In this document: one piece after another, positions 13,429-37,271 of the stretch
Layout: each line of letters begins with the position of its first letter
Numbering within the stretch: the first letter of the stretch is position 1
Origin: a virus
Reading direction: 5' to 3' (one strand)
Virus record (IMG/VR): IMGVR_UViG_3300029955_000060
Span: 1-41,965 of that record
DNA length: 41,965 nt
The notes under the pieces: generated by a model
Seen by the model: only the letters and a program-made list of their open reading frames with translations
Database searches by the model: none
What the model was told of the DNA's origin: nothing
Program-made: the position numbers and the translations under genes

Positions 13429-13663
13429 GCAAAGAAATATGGGTGGCGGTGGACAGCCGGCGAGCCCGGTGGTGCCGACGCCTACGGCTCCCGCGAGCCC
13501 GAACAACAGCGCCTCGCTTGCGGTCGAGCAGGCGACGTTTAGGCAGCAGTTGCGGCGCAAGTCCATCAATTCGACGATCACGGGCGCAGGCGGTGGCTAC
13601 ACGCCACCCGCCGGCGTTGGCCCGAGTTCCCCGGGTGGCAACGGGCCGATGTCACCGAAATGA
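13406..13663 (+). CDS. Small Pro/Gly-rich phage protein
   Basis: Up to 85 residues; a second possible start at 13439 (MGGGGQPASP) would avoid the 23-base overlap with the preceding gene. The region QLRRKSINSTITGAGGGY resembles the 'rrr.~~ST.ltG~~G' segment of a small protein often found just before or after the portal gene in BPP-1- and P22-like phages. The function of that family is unknown. ATGA-coupled to the next gene. Confidence 0.6.
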   Translation: MKWRKQVEQRNMGGGGQPASPVVPTPTAPASPNNSASLAVEQATFRQQLRRKSINSTITGAGGGYTPPAGVGPSSPGGNGPMSPK

Positions 13664-14076
13664 ACAGACGCACGTTTCTTAGCATGTTGGGATTGGCCCC
13701 CTTGCTGCCGCTCGCGGCGAGGCTGCCTGAGCCAAAACCCGCTCCCTTGGCGTGGGAGAGTTCCATTGGGTTCCAGTTCATTCGCACGAGGCTAGGCCCC
13801 ACGCCAAAGGAGGAGTTCGATAAAAGCCTAGAGGAGAATGGGCTATTGTCGTTTTCCGAAAGGATAGACGTACTGCCAATGCGGTGTAATGCCGTCCAGA
13901 TCATGCACACGGCAGACGCTGCGCGAATTCAGCGCATGACTTGGGTTGATGAGGACGACGACCTTGAGAAGGCAAAGGTCATATGCAGGGCAAACACACG
14001 CGTTTCCCTTCGTCGCTATTGGGCGCAGCAGGTCAGGTGGAATCGCAAAGCGCAGAGAGCCCGAGCACGCAAATGA
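13660..14076 (+). CDS. Unknown protein with twin-arginine-type leader
   Basis: 138 residues. The N-terminus, MNRRTFLSMLGLAPLLPLAA, has the twin-arginine motif (RRTFL) followed by a moderate hydrophobic stretch, as in Tat signal peptides; the mature part is polar with a basic C-terminus (NRKAQRARARK). This is surprising between terminase and portal genes. It could be a genuine exported protein, or the RR stretch could be an unrelated basic helix. ATGA overlaps on both sides. Confidence 0.6.
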   Translation: MNRRTFLSMLGLAPLLPLAARLPEPKPAPLAWESSIGFQFIRTRLGPTPKEEFDKSLEENGLLSFSERIDVLPMRCNAVQIMHTADAARIQRMTWVDEDDDLEKAKVICRANTRVSLRRYWAQQVRWNRKAQRARARK

Positions 14077-18858: not shown

Positions 18859-19286
18859 GCGACGAGCACCTTTGGCGCGAAATGAAGGAGCAGGAGATGG
18901 CGGACGATGCCCGCTACCGGCAGAACCTTGCGCCTCAGCAGATCGGCAAACTGAAGGAGAAGCCGATCGACTACAACGCCGCCATGAAGCGGTTCGAGCA
19001 GGACTTTAAGCCCGTGTTCGAGCGGCGCGAGCGGGCGCGCACCTCGAAGGCCTACCGCCTGTTTTTGAAGGCCACCGGCCAGTGGACCGACATGGACGCC
19101 GCCGAGGCGATCAACCCCACGAAGGGGCTTGTCCCTGACGGCCTGACACCCGAGCAGCTCGCCAAGGAGATCCAGCAGAACCCGGAGGCCTACAAGCATC
19201 TGGCTAAGGCGGCACCGCGCGTCACGCCCGTCACCGCCGAGCACCGCACCATAACCCCCAAGTGGGATAAGGACGAAGGCAAATGA
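18855..19286 (+). CDS. Hypothetical helical protein between scaffold and GroES-like gene
   Basis: 143 residues from the ATG overlapping the previous TGA; a TTG start at 18834 would lie inside the preceding gene. Charged and helical (MSDEHLWREMKEQEMADDAR, AYRLFLKATGQWTDMDAAEA). No family was recognised. ATGA-coupled to the co-chaperonin gene, so both are expressed together. Confidence 0.6.
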   Translation: MSDEHLWREMKEQEMADDARYRQNLAPQQIGKLKEKPIDYNAAMKRFEQDFKPVFERRERARTSKAYRLFLKATGQWTDMDAAEAINPTKGLVPDGLTPEQLAKEIQQNPEAYKHLAKAAPRVTPVTAEHRTITPKWDKDEGK

Positions 19287-19561
19287 ACCACCCCCAAGCC
19301 CTAGGACAGTACATCTTCTGCATCAAGGACGCACCCAAGGAGTGCATGGAGGGCGGCATCCTGATCCCCGAGTCTTTGGAGCGCACACCCCGTTTCGGTC
19401 CATCAGTCCTTGCGACGGTGGTAAGCGTGGGGGCGCGTTGCACCGTGCTCAAGGCGGGGGACCGGATTTGCCTTAAAGACATCGCAGGAGACGACCTGAT
19501 CTACAATGATAACACCTACACAAGACTCAGAGAACGCGACATCATCGGAACCGTCAGTTGA
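19283..19561 (+). CDS. GroES-like co-chaperonin
   Basis: 92 residues, the normal length of GroES/Cpn10. GQYIFCIKDAPKECMEGGIL then IPES corresponds to the mobile-loop region ('GGIvlP'). VLATVVSVGARC and VLKAGDRICLKDIAGDDLIY match the 'G.VvaVG.G' and 'vkvGDrVl...y.G.ei.~' strands, and TYTRLRERDIIGTVS the final 'yl.~re.Dila.v' strand. It probably caps the host GroEL to fold a phage protein, as T4 gp31 does for its capsid protein. Placed in the head operon by ATGA coupling, which supports a role in capsid maturation. Confidence 0.8.
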   Translation: MNHPQALGQYIFCIKDAPKECMEGGILIPESLERTPRFGPSVLATVVSVGARCTVLKAGDRICLKDIAGDDLIYNDNTYTRLRERDIIGTVS

Positions 19562-20270
19562 GACCAAGACCAAGATCGGCGTGTTGGTCGCAACACCGAT
19601 GCGGTCGTTCTCGGGCTTCCACCCGCAGCACGAGGCGTTCCTAGCCGAGCTTGCCCGCCTATCCGAGGACCCCGACTGCCCGTATGAGTTCTGGCAGGCC
19701 GTGGTCGAGGGGGGCCGCACATGGGGGCGCTGCCGCATGGTGTCGAACATGAGGAAGCTGCGCCTGCAGTACCCCAACCTGAAGTGGCTGTACTGGCACG
19801 ACGACGACGTTGAGCAGACGGCAGAGGGCCTCTTGAAGCTCCTCTCCTACAAGCTGCCCGTCGTGGGCGCCATGTACGCCACCAAGGAGAAGGACTGCCA
19901 CTGGTGCGCCAACTTCCTGCACGAGGTGAAGCTCCAGCCAAACGGCCTACTGCAGGTCTACGAGCTGGCGGTCGGGGCGCTGCTCACCCACTACGAGGTG
20001 TACGAGAAGATTGAGGAGCGGTTCGCCGCGATCCTCTACACGGACAGGAACACGGGCGAGCGGCACCAGGGCTTCTTTCAGGAGGTCGTCATCGAGCGCG
20101 TCCCGTATTCGGAGGACTACTTCTTCTGCTACCTGATGCGCAACACAGGCATTGGCATCTTCGCCGACACGAACATGAAGCTGCGCCACCGCGGGGCGGA
20201 CGGCACGCTCTGGCCCGAGGAGTGGCCGCCTATACCGATCGACGAGGTGCACGAGGTTGCAACCGACTAG
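19506..20270 (+). CDS. GT-A-type glycosyltransferase-like protein 1
   Basis: 254 residues. WLYWHDDDVE (Asp99-Asp101) is a DXD-like metal- and sugar-nucleotide-binding motif after a Rossmann-like first half (IGVLVATPMRSFSGF). HWCANFLHE and SEDYFFCYLMRNTGI fit the acceptor half of GT-A enzymes; HRGADGTLWPEEW follows the expected late His. It overlaps the GroES-like gene by 56 bases; a later start at 19599 (MRSFSG) would remove part of the first strand, so the early one is kept. First gene of the glycan cassette. Confidence 0.7.
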   Translation: MITPTQDSENATSSEPSVETKTKIGVLVATPMRSFSGFHPQHEAFLAELARLSEDPDCPYEFWQAVVEGGRTWGRCRMVSNMRKLRLQYPNLKWLYWHDDDVEQTAEGLLKLLSYKLPVVGAMYATKEKDCHWCANFLHEVKLQPNGLLQVYELAVGALLTHYEVYEKIEERFAAILYTDRNTGERHQGFFQEVVIERVPYSEDYFFCYLMRNTGIGIFADTNMKLRHRGADGTLWPEEWPPIPIDEVHEVATD

Positions 20271-20271
20271 C

Positions 20272-20940
20272 ATGAAGCTGACGGCAATAACCTGCACGAC
20301 GCCTGCGCGAGCCGAGGCCCTTGAACTCTGCAAGGGATACGTCGCCCGCCAGACGCGCCAGCCGGACCAGTGGCTCATCCTTGACGGACCGGAGCTCATG
20401 CAAAACAAGCTGGCCGACGCGATCAGCGGCGGGAAGGTCGAGGGCGACTACATCGTGTTCGCCGAGGATGACGATTGGTTTAGCCCTCATTGGTTCAAGT
20501 GGTGCGAGGATCGTCTGGCGCGAGGATTCGACATGGTTGGGCAGGGTAACGCGCTGTACTATAACGTCGCTCACAGGTGGTGGTCCCACTGCGGCAACGT
20601 GCGCCATGCGTCCCTTTGCCAGACGGCGATCAGGAAGCGCCTCTTGGAGCACACGTATCGCATCATTGAGGACTTTGGATGCCCGTGGATCGACGTGCAG
20701 CTCTGGAACATCGAGTGCAACAAGTACCTGCATCTGCCGACGGAGAAGGAAATGCTGCTGATTGGCATCAAGGGCCTGTGCAGCGGCTACAGCCGCGAGC
20801 ACCGGCAGGTGGCGGGCGACCTGAACAAATTGGACTACGACCAGTCCAAGCTGCGCGAGTTGATCGGGGACGATGCCGCGCACTATGCCAAGTTCTTCCA
20901 CGGCGAGGAGGAGCTGCTACGGCTGGCCGGTGCTTTATGA
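20272..20940 (+). CDS. GT-A-type glycosyltransferase-like protein 2
   Basis: 222 residues from the ATG right after the previous stop; the in-frame ATG at 20257 would overlap the upstream gene. MKLTAITCTTPARAEALELC is the GT2-like opening strand and helix. QPDQWLILDGP and YIVFAEDDDWF (Asp66-Asp68) give the DXD-type motif often seen as 'fDDDDwy'. It probably transfers a sugar from a nucleotide donor; acceptor unknown. Confidence 0.75.
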   Translation: MKLTAITCTTPARAEALELCKGYVARQTRQPDQWLILDGPELMQNKLADAISGGKVEGDYIVFAEDDDWFSPHWFKWCEDRLARGFDMVGQGNALYYNVAHRWWSHCGNVRHASLCQTAIRKRLLEHTYRIIEDFGCPWIDVQLWNIECNKYLHLPTEKEMLLIGIKGLCSGYSREHRQVAGDLNKLDYDQSKLRELIGDDAAHYAKFFHGEEELLRLAGAL

Positions 20941-21665
20941 ACCTATGCGTTATAGGGCAGGGGGTGCTTGCCGCGACGACCAAGGAGGCGTGCGCGAAGG
21001 TGGGGCATACGCTGCAACCGATAGCTCACAAGGGGCTAGAGGTGCTCTGGGTGTGCTACGATACGCCGGTCACGGACAAGGGTGACGCCGACTACGAGTG
21101 GGTCATCAACCGGATGCAGGAGGAGTTCCAGAACCTTGAGGTTGACCCGGTGATCCTGATCTCCTCCCAGCTTCCGGTCCTGACGACGTTTCGGATGCGC
21201 GAGCGGTTCCCGCTTCGCTTCTTTGCGTGCAGCCCCGAGAACATCCGGGTCGCCTCTGCACTTCCCGACTTCATGCACCAGTCGCGCATCGTGGTCGGCA
21301 GGCCAAATTCCAGTCGGGATTCGATCCTAACCGCTTTGCTTTCCCCGTTCTCGAACGACCTCATGTTCACGAACTGCGAAACCGCCGAGATGGTAAAGCA
21401 CGCGCTCAACTGCTGGCTTGGCATGAACATCGCCTTCATCAACGAGATAGCTCGGGTATGCGACTACGTTAAGGCCGACGCCGAGACGGTCGCCGATGCG
21501 CTCTTAAAGGAGCGGCGCGTGGGGCCATCTGCCCCCCTGCGTCCGGGCAAACCCTTTGGCGGCGGGCACCTCATGCGCGACATCAAGCACCTGGAGTCCA
21601 TCAGCCGTGGCCGGGGCATGGCGCTTCCGATCATAACCCACATCCGCGAATCCAATGAAAGTTGA
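20937..21665 (+). CDS. Shortened UDP-sugar dehydrogenase-like protein lacking the catalytic Cys
   Basis: 242 residues, against over 400 in UDP-glucose/GDP-mannose dehydrogenases. The N-terminal MNLCVIGQGVLAATTKEACA is a reduced Rossmann motif, and the usual 50 or so residues before VCYDTPVTDKGDAD are missing. FACSPENIRVASALPDFM, then RIVVGR, match the family's 'PEFl~eG.a..D...P.RiviG'. AEMVKHALNCWLGMNIAFIN keeps the catalytic Lys (154) and Asn (158). In PFGGGHLMRD the position of the catalytic Cys ('GFGGSCFPKD') is His211. The C-terminal nucleotide-sugar domain is absent. Normal dehydrogenase activity is therefore unlikely. ATGA-coupled to glycosyltransferase 2. Confidence 0.75.
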   Translation: MNLCVIGQGVLAATTKEACAKVGHTLQPIAHKGLEVLWVCYDTPVTDKGDADYEWVINRMQEEFQNLEVDPVILISSQLPVLTTFRMRERFPLRFFACSPENIRVASALPDFMHQSRIVVGRPNSSRDSILTALLSPFSNDLMFTNCETAEMVKHALNCWLGMNIAFINEIARVCDYVKADAETVADALLKERRVGPSAPLRPGKPFGGGHLMRDIKHLESISRGRGMALPIITHIRESNES

Positions 21666-22398
21666 TGTCCACGTTCTGCGCTACGCCGACGACTGGCTGG
21701 TCCCGTACGTCATCCGGCACTACCTGACGTTTGCGGAAAAGGTCGTCATCCACGACGCGGGCGGCGGCGCTCCCATTCCGCTCCAACCGGGAGTCGAGGT
21801 CATCCCATGGGACTGCCCCGAGGTGAACGACCTGCGCTACGCCGAACTGCGCAACAACTGCTGGAAGGGCACGAAGGCTGATTGGGTCGTCGTGTGCGAT
21901 CTGGACGAGCTGCTCTGGTTCCCTGACGGCGCAGAGGCCACTCTGGGCGCCTACGAGAAGATGGGTGCCGCCGTGCCAAAGCCCCACGGGATCGAGATGT
22001 TCAGCGAGACGTACCCGGCCGGCGACGGCCAAATCTTCGACCAGATCAAGATGGGTGCGCCGGACAACAAGTGGTACTCAAAGGCCATCCTGTTCAACCC
22101 GCGCCTCGTGTCCGATATGCGCTATGGACTTGGAAGCCATGAGTGCGACCCGTATCTCCACGATGGAAGGTCATTCCATGTGGGTCCTCGCTGGCCCCAC
22201 GCGAAGCCCCCCTGCTACCTGCTCCACTGCCACCACATCGGGCCAGCCGAGGAAATCGGAGCCAAGTACGACGCGACGATAACGCGCATGTGCAAGGAGA
22301 ACAAGGCGAACCACTGGGGCAACTTGGCTCCGGGTCACATTCATGTTAAGGAAAAGCGCGCCAACATCGTTCCCAACCTCCGTCAAATCATACCGTAA
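21655..22398 (+). CDS. GT2/GT92-like glycosyltransferase protein 3
   Basis: 247 residues. VDVHVLRYADDWLVPYVIRH matches the opening of 'glycosyltransferase family 2' proteins that begin 'l...kdE...l.ewi.~h'. WVVVCDLDELLWF (Asp82-Asp84) is the DXD site, and the late LLHCHHIGPAEEIGAKY is typical of this group ('~~H....s.ee...K'). Overlaps the previous gene by 11 bases. Probably adds a sugar to a cell-surface or phage glycan. Confidence 0.75.
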   Translation: MKVDVHVLRYADDWLVPYVIRHYLTFAEKVVIHDAGGGAPIPLQPGVEVIPWDCPEVNDLRYAELRNNCWKGTKADWVVVCDLDELLWFPDGAEATLGAYEKMGAAVPKPHGIEMFSETYPAGDGQIFDQIKMGAPDNKWYSKAILFNPRLVSDMRYGLGSHECDPYLHDGRSFHVGPRWPHAKPPCYLLHCHHIGPAEEIGAKYDATITRMCKENKANHWGNLAPGHIHVKEKRANIVPNLRQIIP

Positions 22399-22898
22399 TG
22401 GGCTCCGTGCGCTTTGGCATCCCGAGGGAGTTGACGCTCGCCCTAAAGGCGAAGTGGCGGATAGAGGATTTCGTGGAGACAGGAACCCTTGTCGGCCACA
22501 CAGCTGCGTGGGCAGCGGATCACTTCGCTCGGGTCGTAACTGTGGATAATGAAATGGATTCGTATCACAAGATAGCCGGACCCCTCGTAAAGGATCATCC
22601 CAACATTCAGGCATATTGCGATCACTCCCCTTGGTTCCTTGCTGGACTGAGACTCAACTATCAACCAGTGCTCTTTTGGCTGGACGCCCATACCAACGAG
22701 GAATGTCCCGTGCTTGCGGAAATATCCGTAATCAACAAGTCGGGCCAACCCCACGTGATCCTCGTTGACGACGCCCGCCTCTTCGATGCACTGACGGCGT
22801 GGCCCCGCAAGGCCGATGTCATCGCAGCCTTGGAGAACGGCGGCAAACGCACGGTCTGGGAAGTCGAGGACGTTCTTGTAGCCGAGCCATGCCTCTAG
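22398..22898 (+). CDS. Class I methyltransferase-like protein
   Basis: 166 residues. EDFVETGTLVGHTAAWAADH with VVTVDNE is a SAM-binding first half. FWLDAHTNEECPVLAEISVI and HVILVDDARLF are characteristic of a small Rossmann methyltransferase group common in sugar clusters and phages. It is shorter than average and lacks a clear substrate domain. Joined to the previous gene by TAATG, where the stop and start share one base. Confidence 0.65.
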   Translation: MGSVRFGIPRELTLALKAKWRIEDFVETGTLVGHTAAWAADHFARVVTVDNEMDSYHKIAGPLVKDHPNIQAYCDHSPWFLAGLRLNYQPVLFWLDAHTNEECPVLAEISVINKSGQPHVILVDDARLFDALTAWPRKADVIAALENGGKRTVWEVEDVLVAEPCL

Positions 22899-23704
22899 TC
22901 CAGGCGATCATCGGCGGCGGTCTTGGCAACAAGCTCTTTGGCTACTGCTTCGCTAGGGCCTACGCCGAGAAGCATGGATGCGACCTGCACGTGCAAGGGG
23001 GCCTCTACCCGCAGAAGTGGAACATCGTTTTCCAAGGCACCGACCACCCTGCCGTATCCAGAGAACTGCCTATTCGACAGTCGTTCGACTTCGAGAAGTG
23101 GGAGGGGCAGACGGACATACGCATCGAGGGCTTTTGCCAGCACCAGAAGAACCTGATTTACACGCGCCGGCAGATCCGCGAATGGCTGCGCTTCACCCCC
23201 GAGGTCGAGGAAATGGTCGCGGGCATCGAGTCCGTCCAGATCCTTTGCAATCAGCGCCTTGGCGACTACTGCCTGCCGTGCAACCCGTTTGCGTGGGTGA
23301 GCCGCGAGAGCTACATCGAGTGCGCCAACCGCTTCGGGCTTGGCGCATCGAACATCACATGGCAGGACGGCGACACGCACTACCCTTGGCCGGGGATAGA
23401 CGCCTCCCTTTTCAAGCGCCACGAGCACCACGCCGAGTTCGATGAGCGCATGGACTTCCTGCCTGACTTTGTGGTTATGATGCGCGCCAAGAACCTGATC
23501 CGCGCCAACTCGACCTTTGGCTGGTGGGCTCACGAACTGGGCAGCAACGAGCGGGTGTTCTGCCCCGACGTGACAAAAGTTGATGCCAACCAGGGGGTCG
23601 TCGGCCTGAAGCGCGTCCCGCAGTTTGTGCCCTTTGTTGAGGGCAACCATATGCCCGTCGTGCCCGGCATCCCGTACCTGTCCGAGCTTCACCTTGCTCC
23701 ATGA
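22889..23704 (+). CDS. GT11 (alpha-1,2-fucosyltransferase)-like protein
   Basis: 271 residues from the ATG at 22889; the longer frame begins within the preceding gene. GGGLGNKLFGYCFARAYAEK (about 9-28) is the GT11 signature 'GGLGNqmFqYa~ar~la'. NLIRANSTFGWWAHELGSN (about 202-220) matches the 'isNSTFSWWaa~L' motif. NQRLGDY (121-127) takes the place of the usual HxRRGDY, which contacts GDP-fucose, so donor or activity may differ. Overlaps the upstream gene by 10 bases. Confidence 0.75.
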   Translation: MPLVQAIIGGGLGNKLFGYCFARAYAEKHGCDLHVQGGLYPQKWNIVFQGTDHPAVSRELPIRQSFDFEKWEGQTDIRIEGFCQHQKNLIYTRRQIREWLRFTPEVEEMVAGIESVQILCNQRLGDYCLPCNPFAWVSRESYIECANRFGLGASNITWQDGDTHYPWPGIDASLFKRHEHHAEFDERMDFLPDFVVMMRAKNLIRANSTFGWWAHELGSNERVFCPDVTKVDANQGVVGLKRVPQFVPFVEGNHMPVVPGIPYLSELHLAP

Positions 23705-24297
23705 CGATCGACGTAATCGTAGCCCGCTACAAGGAGGACCTGATGTGGACAAAGACGGTCCAGCCCGGCAAGCGCATCTTGGTCTACAACAAGTGCGGGA
23801 TAATGTGTAACTCGCTGCCCAACGTGGGGCGCGAGGCCCACACGTACCTGCATCACATCCTGCACGAATACCGGACACTGCCCGACTGGACGTTCTTCAC
23901 GCAGGGCGACCCGAACGCGCACTTGCCGAGGACGCGCATCCAGACGGTGCTTAACGGGTTTCCCGACAACCGGCTTAGGAGCGTCCTCATGCTGGAGGGT
24001 GGCCCCATCTTTTTCGTGGATGAGCCGGTTCGCCCGCTGGAGGCCGACCCGCAGAACGGGGACGCGCAAAACGACGTGCGCGGCCTGTGGGACGAGCTGT
24101 TTAAGAGCCCGTTCCCCGAGGACATCCTGTTTGCTCCTGCCGCAATCTTCGCCATTCACAAGAGCAACTTATACACGCGGAGCATGGCCTTCTACCATCA
24201 CGCCATGAACGCGGCGGCAAGGCGCCCCCGCGGCCCTTGGGAGTTCGAGCGCATCTGGGCCTACCTGTGGCGCGCCAAGGACACCCCACGCCTTTAA
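23701..24297 (+). CDS. DUF3431-like protein of the glycan cassette
   Basis: 198 residues. IVARYKEDLMW at the start, PNVGREAHTYLHHI (about 40-53), WTFFTQGDP (about 63-71) and an IFAIHKSNLY...EFERIWAYLW end match the pattern of DUF3431 proteins ('vvaRy.Edl.Wl', 'pNvGrE.~tyl.~I', 'ifl.QG.p'). That family has no proven activity but often lies with glycosyltransferases. ATGA-coupled to the GT11-like gene. Confidence 0.7.
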   Translation: MTIDVIVARYKEDLMWTKTVQPGKRILVYNKCGIMCNSLPNVGREAHTYLHHILHEYRTLPDWTFFTQGDPNAHLPRTRIQTVLNGFPDNRLRSVLMLEGGPIFFVDEPVRPLEADPQNGDAQNDVRGLWDELFKSPFPEDILFAPAAIFAIHKSNLYTRSMAFYHHAMNAAARRPRGPWEFERIWAYLWRAKDTPRL

Positions 24298-24298
24298 C

Positions 24299-24928
24299 AT
24301 GGACATCCTTTCCCGCTACAAGGTCCTGATCGAGAACACGGACTGCCCTGTCGTCATGGAAATCGGTGCCGCCGAGGGCGAGGACACGACGCGCTATCTT
24401 GACTGCCTGATCGCGCTCGGTCGCCCGTTCCGCTACATCGCCTTTGAGCCTGACGAGCGCAACGTCTGGCACCTGACTCGCCTCTTGGAGAAAAAGCCCT
24501 TTGAGCTGGTCCCGCACGCGCTGGGGGATAAGAGCGGCCTAGTGCCGTGGCGCTCATCGAACCACCCGTACAGCGGCAGCGTGAAGGAGCCCAAGGCCCA
24601 CCACGAACTCTGGCCGCACATCAGCTTTTCTGAGCCCACCATGATCTACATGGAGGAATTGGACAACGTGGCGGCACGGATGCAGATAGCCAAGGTGGAT
24701 TGGATCTGGTGCGACGTTCAGGGGGCCGAGGACTTGGTGATCGCGGGCGGGCTTAAGACGTTCGCCAGGACGCGCTTCTTCTACACCGAGTACATCGAGG
24801 TGGAGGCCTACGTCGGCCAGATTGGCCGCGACGAGATCCACCGCCGCCTGCCGGGCCGCTGGCGCATCGCCGAGGACTACCGTTCATGGGACAAGGGCGG
24901 GGATTGTTTGTTTGAACGCTTGACATAG
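24299..24928 (+). CDS. FkbM-family methyltransferase
   Basis: 209 residues. VVMEIGAAEGEDTTRYLDCL is the SAM-binding motif I, YIAFEPDE the acidic motif after strand 2, and HALGDKSGLVPW with DWIWCDVQGAEDLVIAGG the FkbM core ('~iDvEGaE~~vL~G'). YTEYIEVEAYVGQ follows as in FkbM proteins. They usually O-methylate sugars, so this may cap the glycan made by the preceding enzymes. Last gene of the cassette; no Shine-Dalgarno sequence, start in tttaacATG one base after the previous stop. Confidence 0.8.
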   Translation: MDILSRYKVLIENTDCPVVMEIGAAEGEDTTRYLDCLIALGRPFRYIAFEPDERNVWHLTRLLEKKPFELVPHALGDKSGLVPWRSSNHPYSGSVKEPKAHHELWPHISFSEPTMIYMEELDNVAARMQIAKVDWIWCDVQGAEDLVIAGGLKTFARTRFFYTEYIEVEAYVGQIGRDEIHRRLPGRWRIAEDYRSWDKGGDCLFERLT

Positions 24929-25092
24929 GCCACTCGTTGGCAATAGCAGTAGCGGCAGAGGAATGTGATGGACACTCGCGCCTAGCGCGACCCGGTGACT
25001 CCTCGGACTAACAAGCCGAGAACCAGACCGGACTTCCCGATACTCTGGCGGTAGGCCGATCAGGCAGTTAACCGCAGTATTTTCCTCTTACA
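24929..25092 (+). promoter_or_regulatory. Structured leader before the major capsid gene
   Basis: 164 bases without a reading frame of note. Several hairpins can form in a row: 24976-24990 (TCGCGC/GCGCGA, 3-base loop), 25002-25020 (CTCGG/CCGAG, 9-base loop), 25023-25048 (CCAGA/TCTGG) and 25048-25075 (GCGGT/ACCGC), which shares one base with the third. No Shine-Dalgarno sequence precedes the capsid ATG. The loop at 25007-25015 recalls a tRNA anticodon arm, but no acceptor stem or T-arm could be found. It could be a translation-control leader, a processed 5' end or the site of the capsid promoter. Confidence 0.5.
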
Positions 25093-26001
25093 ATGGCAAC
25101 AGGTGTACTCACAGTACAACCGCACTACGAGCCCGACTTCGACCGCGTGTGGCATGAAATCATGGCCCAGCAGATCGACCACCGGCTCGCGGGGTACTAC
25201 ATCAGCGACACAGTCGTTGGTAACTCGAAGCGGTACAGCCAGATGGGGTCACAGTCCTACGCGATGAGCCAAAAGACGGCTCGCGCCGCATGGACGGAAC
25301 CCTCTGACGTACCGACCGCAATCCGCTGGGTTCTCCCCACCGGATACCAGAAAGCAACTTGGATCGACGAGGATGACGCCGCCCTTCTGGGCTCGCTCCC
25401 CGATCCGCAGAATCAGGTGGCGATGAACCACGCGATTGCCGTCAATCGCCTGAAGGACCAGCTCATCATCAACAACCTGATTGGCATCAACTACACGGGC
25501 GCCTCGGCGCAGACCGCGACGGCGCTTCCGGCGCTCCAGCAGGTCGGCGTGCAGTTCCCGGCCACGACCAACACGGGCATGACGCTCGCCAAGATCCTTG
25601 AGTCGCTGTTCGTGCTCGACTCGAACGATGTCCCCGAGATGGACCGCGTCATGGTCTACGCCGCAAAGCAGCTCTACGATCTGCTCTTGAACGTGGATCA
25701 GGTTGACTCCGTCCTCTACAACGATGTCCGCGCGCTGATGAAGGGTCGCTTCGACGAGTTCGCCGGTTTCCGGTGGATTCGCACCCAGCTCCTCCCGACC
25801 GTCGGCACGCCGTCCATCCGCTCGTGCATCGCCTACCAGAAGAAATTCGCGCTCTTGGGCGAACTGAAGGGCATGAGCACGAAGATCGACATCCTGCCCC
25901 AGCAGTCCCACGCGATTCAGGTGCGCACGACCTACACGGCCAATGCCACCCGCATGGAAGAGGCTGGAGTGGTCGTGATCGCCTGCGACGAGACCCAGTA
26001 A
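25093..26001 (+). CDS. Major capsid protein
   Basis: 302 residues. Sequence features of podovirus HK97-fold capsids are visible: FDRVWHEIMAQQIDHRLAGY near the start, VAMNHAIAVNRLKDQLIINN (a long helix like the spine helix), FDEFAGFRWIRTQLLPTVGT (the 'Gf.~i.sn.lp' strand common to P22/BPP-1-like capsids) and a beta-rich end. No N-terminal delta domain is evident, in line with a separate scaffold. The gene has no Shine-Dalgarno sequence although capsid must be made in bulk, so the leader probably supplies other signals. Confidence 0.85.
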   Translation: MATGVLTVQPHYEPDFDRVWHEIMAQQIDHRLAGYYISDTVVGNSKRYSQMGSQSYAMSQKTARAAWTEPSDVPTAIRWVLPTGYQKATWIDEDDAALLGSLPDPQNQVAMNHAIAVNRLKDQLIINNLIGINYTGASAQTATALPALQQVGVQFPATTNTGMTLAKILESLFVLDSNDVPEMDRVMVYAAKQLYDLLLNVDQVDSVLYNDVRALMKGRFDEFAGFRWIRTQLLPTVGTPSIRSCIAYQKKFALLGELKGMSTKIDILPQQSHAIQVRTTYTANATRMEEAGVVVIACDETQ

Positions 26002-26669: not shown

Positions 26670-26736
26670 TCTAAAGTTAGTTATGATGGCCCCGTCTTGG
26701 ATGTGTTGGATCATCTGGGGCGGGGCCTAACTTTTT
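26642..26736 (+). terminator. Two-stage Rho-independent terminator after the head operon
   Basis: First hairpin: CTTTAGATTAC (26642-26652) with GTAATCTAAAG (26666-26676), an 11-base perfect stem over the gene's stop codon. Second hairpin: GGCCCCG (26688-26694) with CGGGGCC (26721-26727), which AAAGTTA (26673-26679) and TAACTTT (26728-26734) can extend, followed by TTTTT at 26732-26736. The extension competes with the first hairpin for 26673-26676. This separates capsid genes from tail genes. Confidence 0.8.
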
Positions 26737-35883: not shown

Positions 35884-36001
35884 ACATTTCACCGACGACA
35901 TACAGGAGATAATCGACGCCGCAGAAACGGGCGAAAAAGGGTGCCTATTGCCCGAGCGAGACGACCCGAGAAAGGGGGAAGACGATGACGCTGGGGAATA
36001 A
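35873..36001 (+). CDS. Small acidic protein, 42 residues
   Basis: GTG start. Reads MNAEHFTDDIQEIIDAAETG then EKGCLLPERDDPRKGEDDDAGE and TAA. Strongly acidic. It overlaps the gp16-like gene by 11 bases and the ATP-grasp gene by 17, filling what would otherwise be a gap. It could be a substrate or partner of the ATP-grasp enzyme, but this is only suggested by position. Confidence 0.5.
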   Translation: MNAEHFTDDIQEIIDAAETGEKGCLLPERDDPRKGEDDDAGE

Positions 36002-37271
36002 GACCGCGCTAGTGGTTTGCTCTGGCCTGTTCGTCAGCATTGCCGAGCGGCTAGGCCGCGACTTCAAGAAGGTGTACCTCTACGTGCCCTACGCGGGCAA
36101 CTTCCCCACGATGTCAAAGGGGATGCTGGGGCACGGGCTTGAAAATGTCGAGCGGGTTGACGGGATTTTCGGACCTCACTTCGATTCGGTGGACCTTTTC
36201 GTGTTCGTGGACTTGGGCCACGCCGCCCTTCAAATTCACCTTGAGAAGCTCGGCAAGCGCGTGTGGGGTCCTCGCAACGCCGAGGAGCAGGAAATCTACC
36301 GCGAGCTGTGCAAGGAGCAGATGGAGAAGCTGGGCCTACCCGTGCAGCCGTGGAAGATCGTGAAGGGTGTTACGGAGCTGGAGAAGCACCTGACGGCCCA
36401 CAAGAACCAGCTTGTCAAGATCGACAAGTGGCGCGGCGTAACCGAGACGTTCTTCGCCCCGTCGTTCGACATCGTGGAACCCAAGGTCCACGCCATCGCG
36501 GAGACGCTCGGTCCGTTCAAAGAGGAGCTGGAGTTCATCGTCGAGAACGAGCTTCCTGATTGCGTCGAGGCGGGCATCGACACGTTCACGATAGACGGCC
36601 AATACCCTGCGCAAACCCTTGTTGGAATCGAGGTTAAGGACTGCGGATACCTAGGACAATTCGTGTCCTATGCCTCCATCCCTGAACCGCTGCGCAGGTG
36701 GAACGACGCCTTCGCCCCGCTCTTTGCCCAATACGGCGCGCGCGGCACGGTCTCCAACGAGGTCCGCATCGGCAAGGACAAGGTGCCGTACATGATCGAC
36801 GCCACGATCCGCGCACCGTCGCCGCCCTCCGAACTCATGCAGGAGCTTTGGACCAACTTTTCGGAGATCATTTGGGAGGGGGCAGGCGGCGTCTTGGTCG
36901 AGCCCATCCCCGCCGCCAAGTGGGGCGTCGAGGTGATCGTCAAGAGCGCATGGGCCGAGCACAACCTTCAACTCGTGGACTACCCGGAGGAGTTCGCCAA
37001 CCAGATCAAGCTCTACAACTTGGTGATCGTTGACGGCAAGCGGTACGTCGTATGCCAGGACGACGAGATGACCGAGATAGGTGCCGTGGTCGGTTGGGGC
37101 GACACCCCCGAGGAAGCGTTCGAGCACGCCAAGAAGGCGGGCGAATCGCTCAAGGGCTACCAAATCAAGTTCGAGATGGGCGCCGCCGACAAGGCATACG
37201 AGCAGATCGAGGAACTGGCTGAGCTTGGCGTCTCCCCGTTCAAACTTGAAAAGCAAGCCAATAACAAATAG
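35985..37271 (+). CDS. ATP-grasp enzyme (PurD-like ligase fold)
   Basis: 428 residues. The N-terminal domain (about 1-95) is Rossmann-like, with LFVFVDLGHAALQIHLEKLG and GKRVWGPRNAEEQEIYRELC resembling 'G~~v~Gp~~~aa~iE~sK'. An ATP-grasp core follows: LVKIDKWRGVTETFF (Lys145, where PurD has 'VvKadGla~GKGV'), ELEFIVENELPD (Glu187/Glu189, adenine hinge), IDTFTIDGQ, and NEVRIGKDKVPYMIDATIRA (Glu259, Asp272, Arg276, metal-binding end). Such enzymes make carbon-nitrogen bonds through acyl phosphates. Purine genes are absent, so an amino-acid or peptide ligase role is equally possible. Confidence 0.75.
   Translation: MTLGNKTALVVCSGLFVSIAERLGRDFKKVYLYVPYAGNFPTMSKGMLGHGLENVERVDGIFGPHFDSVDLFVFVDLGHAALQIHLEKLGKRVWGPRNAEEQEIYRELCKEQMEKLGLPVQPWKIVKGVTELEKHLTAHKNQLVKIDKWRGVTETFFAPSFDIVEPKVHAIAETLGPFKEELEFIVENELPDCVEAGIDTFTIDGQYPAQTLVGIEVKDCGYLGQFVSYASIPEPLRRWNDAFAPLFAQYGARGTVSNEVRIGKDKVPYMIDATIRAPSPPSELMQELWTNFSEIIWEGAGGVLVEPIPAAKWGVEVIVKSAWAEHNLQLVDYPEEFANQIKLYNLVIVDGKRYVVCQDDEMTEIGAVVGWGDTPEEAFEHAKKAGESLKGYQIKFEMGAADKAYEQIEELAELGVSPFKLEKQANNK

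Follow-up and report, generated by a model that had tools for sequence, protein, structure and literature searches.

A putative glycan-modification cassette beside the capsid gene of an uncultivated short-tailed phage and some of its relatives

Known phage glycosylation systems and the capsid-adjacent cassette

Phage glycosyltransferases that alter the surface glycan of the host are familiar from temperate phages, in which the gtrABC cassette brings about O-antigen conversion and carries a multi-pass membrane flippase together with a membrane glycosyltransferase. Here we describe a cassette of eight genes (c1–c8, nt 19506–24928) lying ahead of the major capsid gene in the IMG/VR virus record IMGVR_UViG_3300029955_000060 (analysed over its 41,965 nt and hereafter called the window), whose products would act on glycans, tentatively on those of virion proteins. 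In contrast to the gtr cassettes, the maximum 19-residue hydropathy across c1–c8 was 1.21, with no membrane segment evident.

Glycosylation of the virion itself by phage glycosyltransferases has been reported (Freeman et al. 2023, as cited in PMC11256854 and PMC10877033) in F1-type mycobacteriophages, Che8 and its relatives, where capsid and tail proteins are modified. The cassette likewise provides phage-encoded glycosyltransferases, recognised by family searches and, for c1, by the predicted fold, and the mycobacteriophage protein Ardmore Gp87 is a distant fold match of c1 (rank 39, E 7e-5). The layout is different: Maravista, an announced relative of Che8, has two glycosyltransferases near the 3′ end of its genome (PMC11256854), whereas here eight genes, methyltransferases included, are found at the capsid gene. 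Moreover, the Che8 modification is reported as experimental, whereas for the window a modification is predicted.

According to the accessible text of PMC7029224, pelagimyophages have host-recognition clusters that resemble the present locus in being variable islands with glycosyltransferases, and with UDP-glucose dehydrogenase among the lipopolysaccharide-related genes in or near them. Those clusters are, however, tail-fibre islands of T4-like phages with a mean length of 44.6 kb, in which GT8 is most represented, and no capsid-adjacent slot is described in that text. In the T4-like cyanophages S-SRM01 and RN05-S, a single run brings together GT2 genes, GT11/fucosyltransferase genes and a methyltransferase gene of the FkbM or another type, the encoded proteins being 27–29% (c8) and 25–28% (c6) identical to those of the window. 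The cyanophage clusters include nucleotide-sugar synthesis genes, whereas the cassette is without an intact sugar-nucleotide enzyme, and no head gene is annotated within the ≈16.5 kb stretches viewed. Glycosyltransferase/methyltransferase clusters of phages, the FkbM/GT11/GT2 runs of cyanophages among them, are already known, and the view of the first-pass annotation that a system of this make-up was undescribed is not supported. No paper on the cassette itself was found in the open-licence full-text literature. As far as our searches reach, what is new is a capsid-adjacent slot with occupied and empty states, a recurring core whose c2 is not in the phage collection, and a leader RNA at the border. 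Both virion and host-surface targets have precedents, and the novelty lies in the module, its position and its plug-in behaviour.

Enzyme content and occupancy of the slot

The window is of the short-tailed phage type, with terminase subunits, a portal-type connector, capsid and tail proteins recognised in family searches; the nearest relatives of its capsid protein in the phage collection are those of Pelagibacter phages such as HTVC010P (≈33% identity). The cassette (Table 1) was confirmed as an almost gap-free run of eight plus-strand open reading frames (ORFs), with a coding fraction of 0.9996 and spacings, in order from c1 to c8, of +1, −4, −11, −1, −10, −4 and +1 bases, so that no gap exceeds 1 base. 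The starts of c2, c3 and c6 were corrected by alignment (to 20272, 20937 and 22889), and the start of c1 overlaps the upstream GroES-like gene by 56 bases. The location first given, between scaffold and capsid genes, needs correction in that a gene for a 150-amino-acid protein and the GroES-like gene separate the supposed scaffold gene from the cassette, and "scaffold" is a label by position, the PHROG match of that protein being without known function. In guanine plus cytosine (GC) content the cassette genes differ little from the capsid gene, and the same holds for third-position GC except in c5 (0.67 versus 0.79–0.88), so that composition alone would not betray an island.

Profile searches returned families of glycan-modification enzymes for most of the eight proteins, in agreement with the first-pass annotation, c1 being recognised from its fold and c5 from motifs; the Pfam matches of c2, c4 and c6 score under the curated cut-offs of Pfam. 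The three GT-A-type glycosyltransferases originally listed are recovered as c2 and c4, by sequence, and c1, by predicted structure. For c1, one family reached significance, a PHROG without assigned function (phrog_1574), and a PDB sequence search with its profile gave chance-level matches only. Its model (mean predicted local distance difference test, pLDDT, 78.4) adopts a GT-A fold that best matches STIV A197 (Z 16.7 over 164 residues, root mean square deviation 2.6), followed by LH3 (Z ≈15) and by Mimivirus R699, Mnn9 and collagen galactosyltransferase (Z 13–15). Several proteins of this group act on proteins; a shared predicted fold, though, indicates no acceptor. All 10 aligned sequences, that of the window among them, have D99 and D101, and c1 combines the predicted GT-A fold and the DxD-type motif of a GT-A glycosyltransferase. 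Acidic motifs are similarly conserved in nine aligned sequences (window included) of c2 (E65–D68, homologues down to 40% identity) and of c4 (D82, D84 and E85, homologues down to 34%).

As to the UDP-sugar dehydrogenase relative, c3, homology is clear and activity doubtful. It also matches TIGR03026 (E 5e-37), yet below the family cut-off. In an alignment with the enzyme of known structure 3gg2, residue 33 of c3 falls on residue 78 and similarity stops at 298 of 450, so that c3 lacks about 45 NAD-domain residues and the whole C-terminal domain; the GGxCxPKD motif reads GGGHLMRD, with His where the catalytic Cys is expected. That Cys, a complete NAD domain and a C-terminal UDP domain all have roles in UDP-glucose/GDP-mannose dehydrogenases, so that c3 shares homology with the family and none of these three features. 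In the lineage of the related contig L005, internal deletions have removed the greater part of both c3 and c7 and left their ends. Being truncated, changed from Cys to His and largely deleted in a sister lineage, c3 is probably not a working dehydrogenase.

Of the two methyltransferases of the first-pass annotation, c8 belongs to the FkbM family. The other, c5, has no significant match in Pfam, PHROGs, NCBIfam or PDB sequences and is a probable class I S-adenosylmethionine (SAM) methyltransferase judged by two motifs, ETG...G and LDAH, that do not vary among 5 aligned sequences. The name "GT11-like" suits c6, which reaches 18.2 bits against the Pfam GT11 cut-off of 23.9 and also matches a glycosyltransferase PHROG. 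The DUF3431 protein, c7, was correctly recognised and is a possible glycosyltransferase: the top fold matches of its low-confidence model (pLDDT 57.9) are glycosyltransferases, none significant, and in open-licence full text DUF3431 appears in fungal papers only. No match to defence families was obtained for any of the eight proteins.

That the cassette is an insertion, as had been suspected, is supported by the comparison with relatives. Among 26 related contigs, the interval between the GroES-like and capsid genes is visible in 22 and not in the other four; it measures 175–181 bp in 11 of the 22 and holds a variable cassette of 2.8–5.6 kb in the other 11 (the length in L075 being extrapolated from a partial capsid match). 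Near-identical contigs are included (L005/L007/L021, L064/L065 and L061/L075), so that these are not 22 independent events. All eight genes are found in L003 and L004; L005 has c1, c2, c4, c5, c6 and c8 with relics of c3 and c7, and L007 and L021 agree with it by match pattern. Elsewhere the content changes: L013 has c1, a Methyltransf_24 gene and c2 fused to c4; L064 and L065 (seen as L097 and L098) have c1, c2, a methyltransferase and c4; L060 and L061 have c1, c2, c4, a methyltransferase, c6 and two DUF3431 genes. The more distant L066 and L067 (capsid 45–48% identical) show no cassette match in the GroES–capsid interval and carry a cassette upstream of the terminase gene, on the same strand. 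The idea that cassette-free phages keep the genes elsewhere was set aside, no c1 or c4 match being present in 11 of 11 cassette-free contigs, although all are fragments of 5.9–30.7 kb.

The window, L004 and L005 fall together in the c1, c2 and c4 trees, in agreement with the capsid tree, and are joined by L053 in that of c1; with many deeper forks unresolved, gain and loss cannot be ordered from them. Judging from the contigs compared, the cassette is an accessory island, and its slot, open to exchange, is bounded by the GroES-like gene and the capsid leader. A scan of genome contigs for a host with the capsid alignment found no relative, and one with c2 found a single contig, L075, from a fen bin assigned to Armatimonadetes. 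L075 shares its gene spacing and an identical g26028 protein with L061 and may be phage DNA placed in the wrong bin, so that we name no host.

Between the window and L005, the ratio of nonsynonymous to synonymous substitution rates (dN/dS) was 0.10–0.34 for c1, c2, c4, c5, c6 and c8 (0.10–0.25 leaving c5 aside), compared with 0.09–0.45 in about ten neighbouring genes, which argues against chance ORFs. In the comparison with L061 and L013, ratios were higher for the cassette genes (0.26–0.62, with dS near or above 1) and ranged from 0.16 to 0.70 for structural genes. A single synonymous base separates c3 of the window from that of L025, uninformative either way.

The core of the cassette recurs, by sequence comparison, in other uncultivated phages, as a methyltransferase flanked by two GT2 genes. 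The c2 family comprises 281 relatives among 434 pattern matches in IMG/VR; among the best 80, c4 is also present in 26 and not seen in 54, and the order c2, Methyltransf_24, c4 occurs in 14 of those 26, 12 of the 26 coming from the window's own lineage or from L066 and L067, and several others being duplicate contigs. A tblastn search with c1–c6 and c8 of a collection of 50,697 phage records gave no match for c2, c5 or c6. Two unannotated uncultured records matched c4 (five with the L066 homologue as query), 16 records matched c3, 12 matched c8, and 44 matched c1, 43 of them Synechococcus phages at ≈23% identity.

On the right, the slot is bordered by a predicted structured leader RNA of the capsid gene, with 23 pairs, compensatory changes in 13 of them, and 41 cells against a shuffled mean of 14.7. 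Its covariation score was 0.508, compared with 0.170 for shuffled alignments and 0.02–0.10 for slid structures; shuffles as high numbered 0 of 500 on four of five measures and 5 of 500 on the number of pair types, with the reservation that the structure derives from the same 10 sequences, including two near-identical pairs, so that the controls are biased in its favour. Of 18 sources searched with a covariance model, 9 have the leader (the window, L004, L005, L009, L013, L020, L060, L061 and L064), only L004, with a leader equal to the window's, and L020 being outside the model; the model does not find the leader in L040–L042, L066, L067, L073 and L074 (more distant), L068, or L022 (capsid start cut off). 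The leader matches no Rfam family, nothing on it was found in open-licence full text, and it is possibly a cis-regulatory element for capsid expression.

Just upstream, the TTGAC of a possible −35 element is invariant in 13 of 13 aligned capsid leaders, those of cassette-free phages included; no clear −10 box follows it and a sigma-70 scan did not list the site, so a capsid promoter at TTGACA is inferred only. A strong terminator-like hairpin is present after the gene following the capsid gene (26688–26727), in a scan overall no richer than shuffles, and in L073 a hairpin and then T-rich sequence precede the capsid leader (by eye). Capsid gene and neighbour look like a unit of their own, the cassette like the tail of the upstream unit. 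Since close relatives keep the TTGAC(A) element and structured leader of the capsid gene, the cassette need not be co-expressed with it. The earlier expectation of late expression with the capsid genes finds support in the shared direction with late genes, and is weakened by the capsid gene's own element and leader and by the opposite-strand position of the module in some phages.

Table 1. Cassette genes and bordering features of the window (nt positions).
Feature	Position	Strand	Basis
GroES-like co-chaperonin gene, left border of variable island	19283–19561	+	PHROG co-chaperonin GroES E 1e-8
c1: GT-A fold glycosyltransferase with DxD, unassigned family (phrog_1574)	19506–20270	+	fold model and motif
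c2: family 2 glycosyltransferase, EDDD motif, module core gene	20272–20940	+	PF00535 E 9e-4 (below cut-off)
c3: truncated UDP-glucose dehydrogenase relative	20937–21665	+	PF00984 E 2e-21, PF03721 E 2e-7
c4: family 2 (GT2_4) glycosyltransferase, DxDE, module core gene	21655–22398	+	PF13704 E 1e-5 (below cut-off)
c5: probable class I SAM methyltransferase	22398–22898	+	motifs only
c6: GT11-like (fucosyltransferase-like) glycosyltransferase	22889–23704	+	PF01531 E 0.0015; PHROG glycosyltransferase E 5e-9
c7: DUF3431 protein, possible glycosyltransferase	23701–24297	+	PF11913 E 3e-13
c8: FkbM family methyltransferase	24299–24928	+	PF05050 E 2e-9; TIGR01444 E 3e-15
TTGACA at 3′ end of c8, possible −35 of capsid promoter	24920–24925	+	conservation
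Structured leader RNA conserved ahead of capsid gene; right border of island	24950–25071	+	covariation
Major capsid protein gene	25093–26001	+	PF19821 E 3e-49

Candidate targets of the cassette

Enzyme families, conserved acidic motifs, occupied and empty slots and gene turnover are all read from the sequences; for the function, we tentatively favour a late-expressed glycan assembly line acting on virion proteins. Soluble glycosyltransferases would take nucleotide sugars of the host and build a short glycan in the cytosol, started by c1 or c2, extended by c4, c6 and perhaps c7, and O-methylated by c8 and c5; c3, probably a relic, would contribute no dehydrogenase activity. The likeliest acceptor would be a virion protein (the capsid protein, the protein encoded after it, or a tail fibre or spike), giving a decorated particle, because variants of the cassette recur within late structural gene runs of other phages. 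In L076 (HK97-type phage DNA), the genes for head-tail adaptor and head closure enclose a c2 homologue accompanied by a methyltransferase gene and a sialyltransferase-like one; another c2 homologue lies between portal and tape measure genes in L080 (a Stenotrophomonas contig), and in L109 the module precedes a tail fibre gene. The soluble nature of the enzymes and their placement among head and neck genes in several phages count for a virion target, as does the late structural position, which would not serve expression during lysogeny; that position gives no support to an early takeover role.

Several observations weigh against virion glycosylation. The capsid protein is conserved (84%) with or without the cassette, its Ser/Thr content is not higher in cassette-bearing phages, and that of g26028 is mostly lower in them (8 phages with and 7 without in both cases), Ser/Thr content being a weak acceptor proxy of our own choice and no defining feature of known virion-glycosylation systems. 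The module forms an island that runs against a neighbouring terminase-like gene (recognised by eye) in L068 (the contig of L111), L110 and L125, and against the large genes flanking it in L106 and L124; such islands suit a free-standing moron and weaken the argument from position. Enzymes of the GT9, GT11 and FkbM types are typical of surface glycans, and spike-like genes (parallel beta-helix features by eye) occur near the cassette, just upstream of the scaffold gene, in L013, L060, L061 and L064, which suits modification of the host surface. Remodelling of that surface, by sugars added and methylated on lipopolysaccharide or capsule precursors late in infection, sparing the progeny re-adsorption to debris and excluding competitors, is a serious possibility that follows close behind. 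It would fit the fast gene turnover, given variable host glycans, the occurrence of the module as a separate island in several phages, the GT9-like gene (by eye) and GT11 relatives that travel with it in some, and a spike-like gene with a Pfam pectate-lyase-like domain (E 2e-7) after the cassette in L066; modification of the host O-chain has been proposed for the pelagimyophage host-recognition clusters (PMC7029224, accessible text). It fits less well with the c2 homologues of L076 and L080, inside head and neck runs where surface modifiers are unexpected, and with the lack of a membrane partner among c1–c8, for which matches in Pfam, PHROGs and NCBIfam included no lipid-carrier transferase, flippase, ligase or polymerase.

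We consider it improbable that the cassette is a moron in decay, retained by chance and of little function at present. The internal deletions of c3 and c7 in the L005 lineage, the missing catalytic Cys of c3 and the 11 related contigs without a cassette at the slot would agree with decay, and dN/dS reaches 0.26–0.62 against L061 and L013, but there dS is near saturation and structural genes reach 0.49–0.70. The low dN/dS of c1, c2, c4, c6 and c8 against L005, the acidic motifs of c2 and c4 retained in distant homologues, and the core order conserved in other phages speak against it. More improbable still is glycosylation of the genome, in which the transferases would modify a hydroxylated base and block restriction enzymes. 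FkbM and GT11 enzymes are, to our knowledge, not known from DNA modification, the cassette is absent from close relatives, and no hydroxymethylase, thymidylate-synthase relative or other base-modifying enzyme was found among the 30 window proteins scanned with Pfam; DNA glycosylation is nevertheless a known use of phage glycosyltransferases (PMC7029224, accessible text).

If virion glycosylation is extended to the recurring core, the cassette would be one form of a portable module, in which uncultivated phages of several types plug the GT2-methyltransferase-GT2 core into late structural runs, where its neighbours are genes for capsid, portal, terminase, neck or fibre proteins, place O-methylated glycans on virion proteins and re-tool them by swapping transferases. 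This wider proposal we regard as rather doubtful.

Neighbouring features and significance

The GroES-like gene precedes the capsid gene in the related contigs showing the region; in the lineage it adjoins either the capsid gene or the cassette, and its product may assist capsid folding. The spike-like genes (L013 3171–5210, L060 1225–2778, L061 2925–4202 and L064 2488–4305) mark a second variable slot, flanked by g16879 and the scaffold gene, where the window has no such gene. Two bacterial-genome loci (L076 7520–9172 and L078 7445–8654) have a c2-type glycosyltransferase adjoining a gene of a PHROG named sialyltransferase, the former amid head and neck genes.

Upstream of the portal gene of the window, a small gene (13660–14076) encodes a protein that begins with what looks by eye like a Tat signal and is similar in its central part to the C-terminal portion of the capsid protein (33% over 66 amino acids, pairwise E 7e-7); the gene is also in L025 at 95%, and its product resembles a partial capsid paralogue. 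At 35985–37271, a protein resembling ATP-grasp ligases by eye had no match in Pfam, PHROG, NCBIfam or PDB. Its gene was matched in 12 of 20 records and occurs in the lineage with or without the cassette, near a sugar module in L107, L112 and L114; it was ruled out as a cassette member, the cassette-free G010, G011 and G014 carrying it too. The last ≈60 bases of the window repeat at 79–140, within fibre-like repeat sequence, so that the true genome ends may be in a repetitive fibre gene.

For the biology of these phages, the capsid leader RNA at the island border is a separate testable object, and the occupied and empty slots of close relatives are a ready natural comparison whichever the target. 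Should the host surface be the target, the cassette would provide small phages with a compact kit, linked to their late genes, for remodelling that surface in several steps. Should it be the virion, particle glycosylation would extend from actinobacterial phages to an exchangeable module of uncultivated environmental phages, with a gene set small enough to be rebuilt in a laboratory strain; and if the portable module is real, environmental phages would wear changeable, partly methylated sugar coats.

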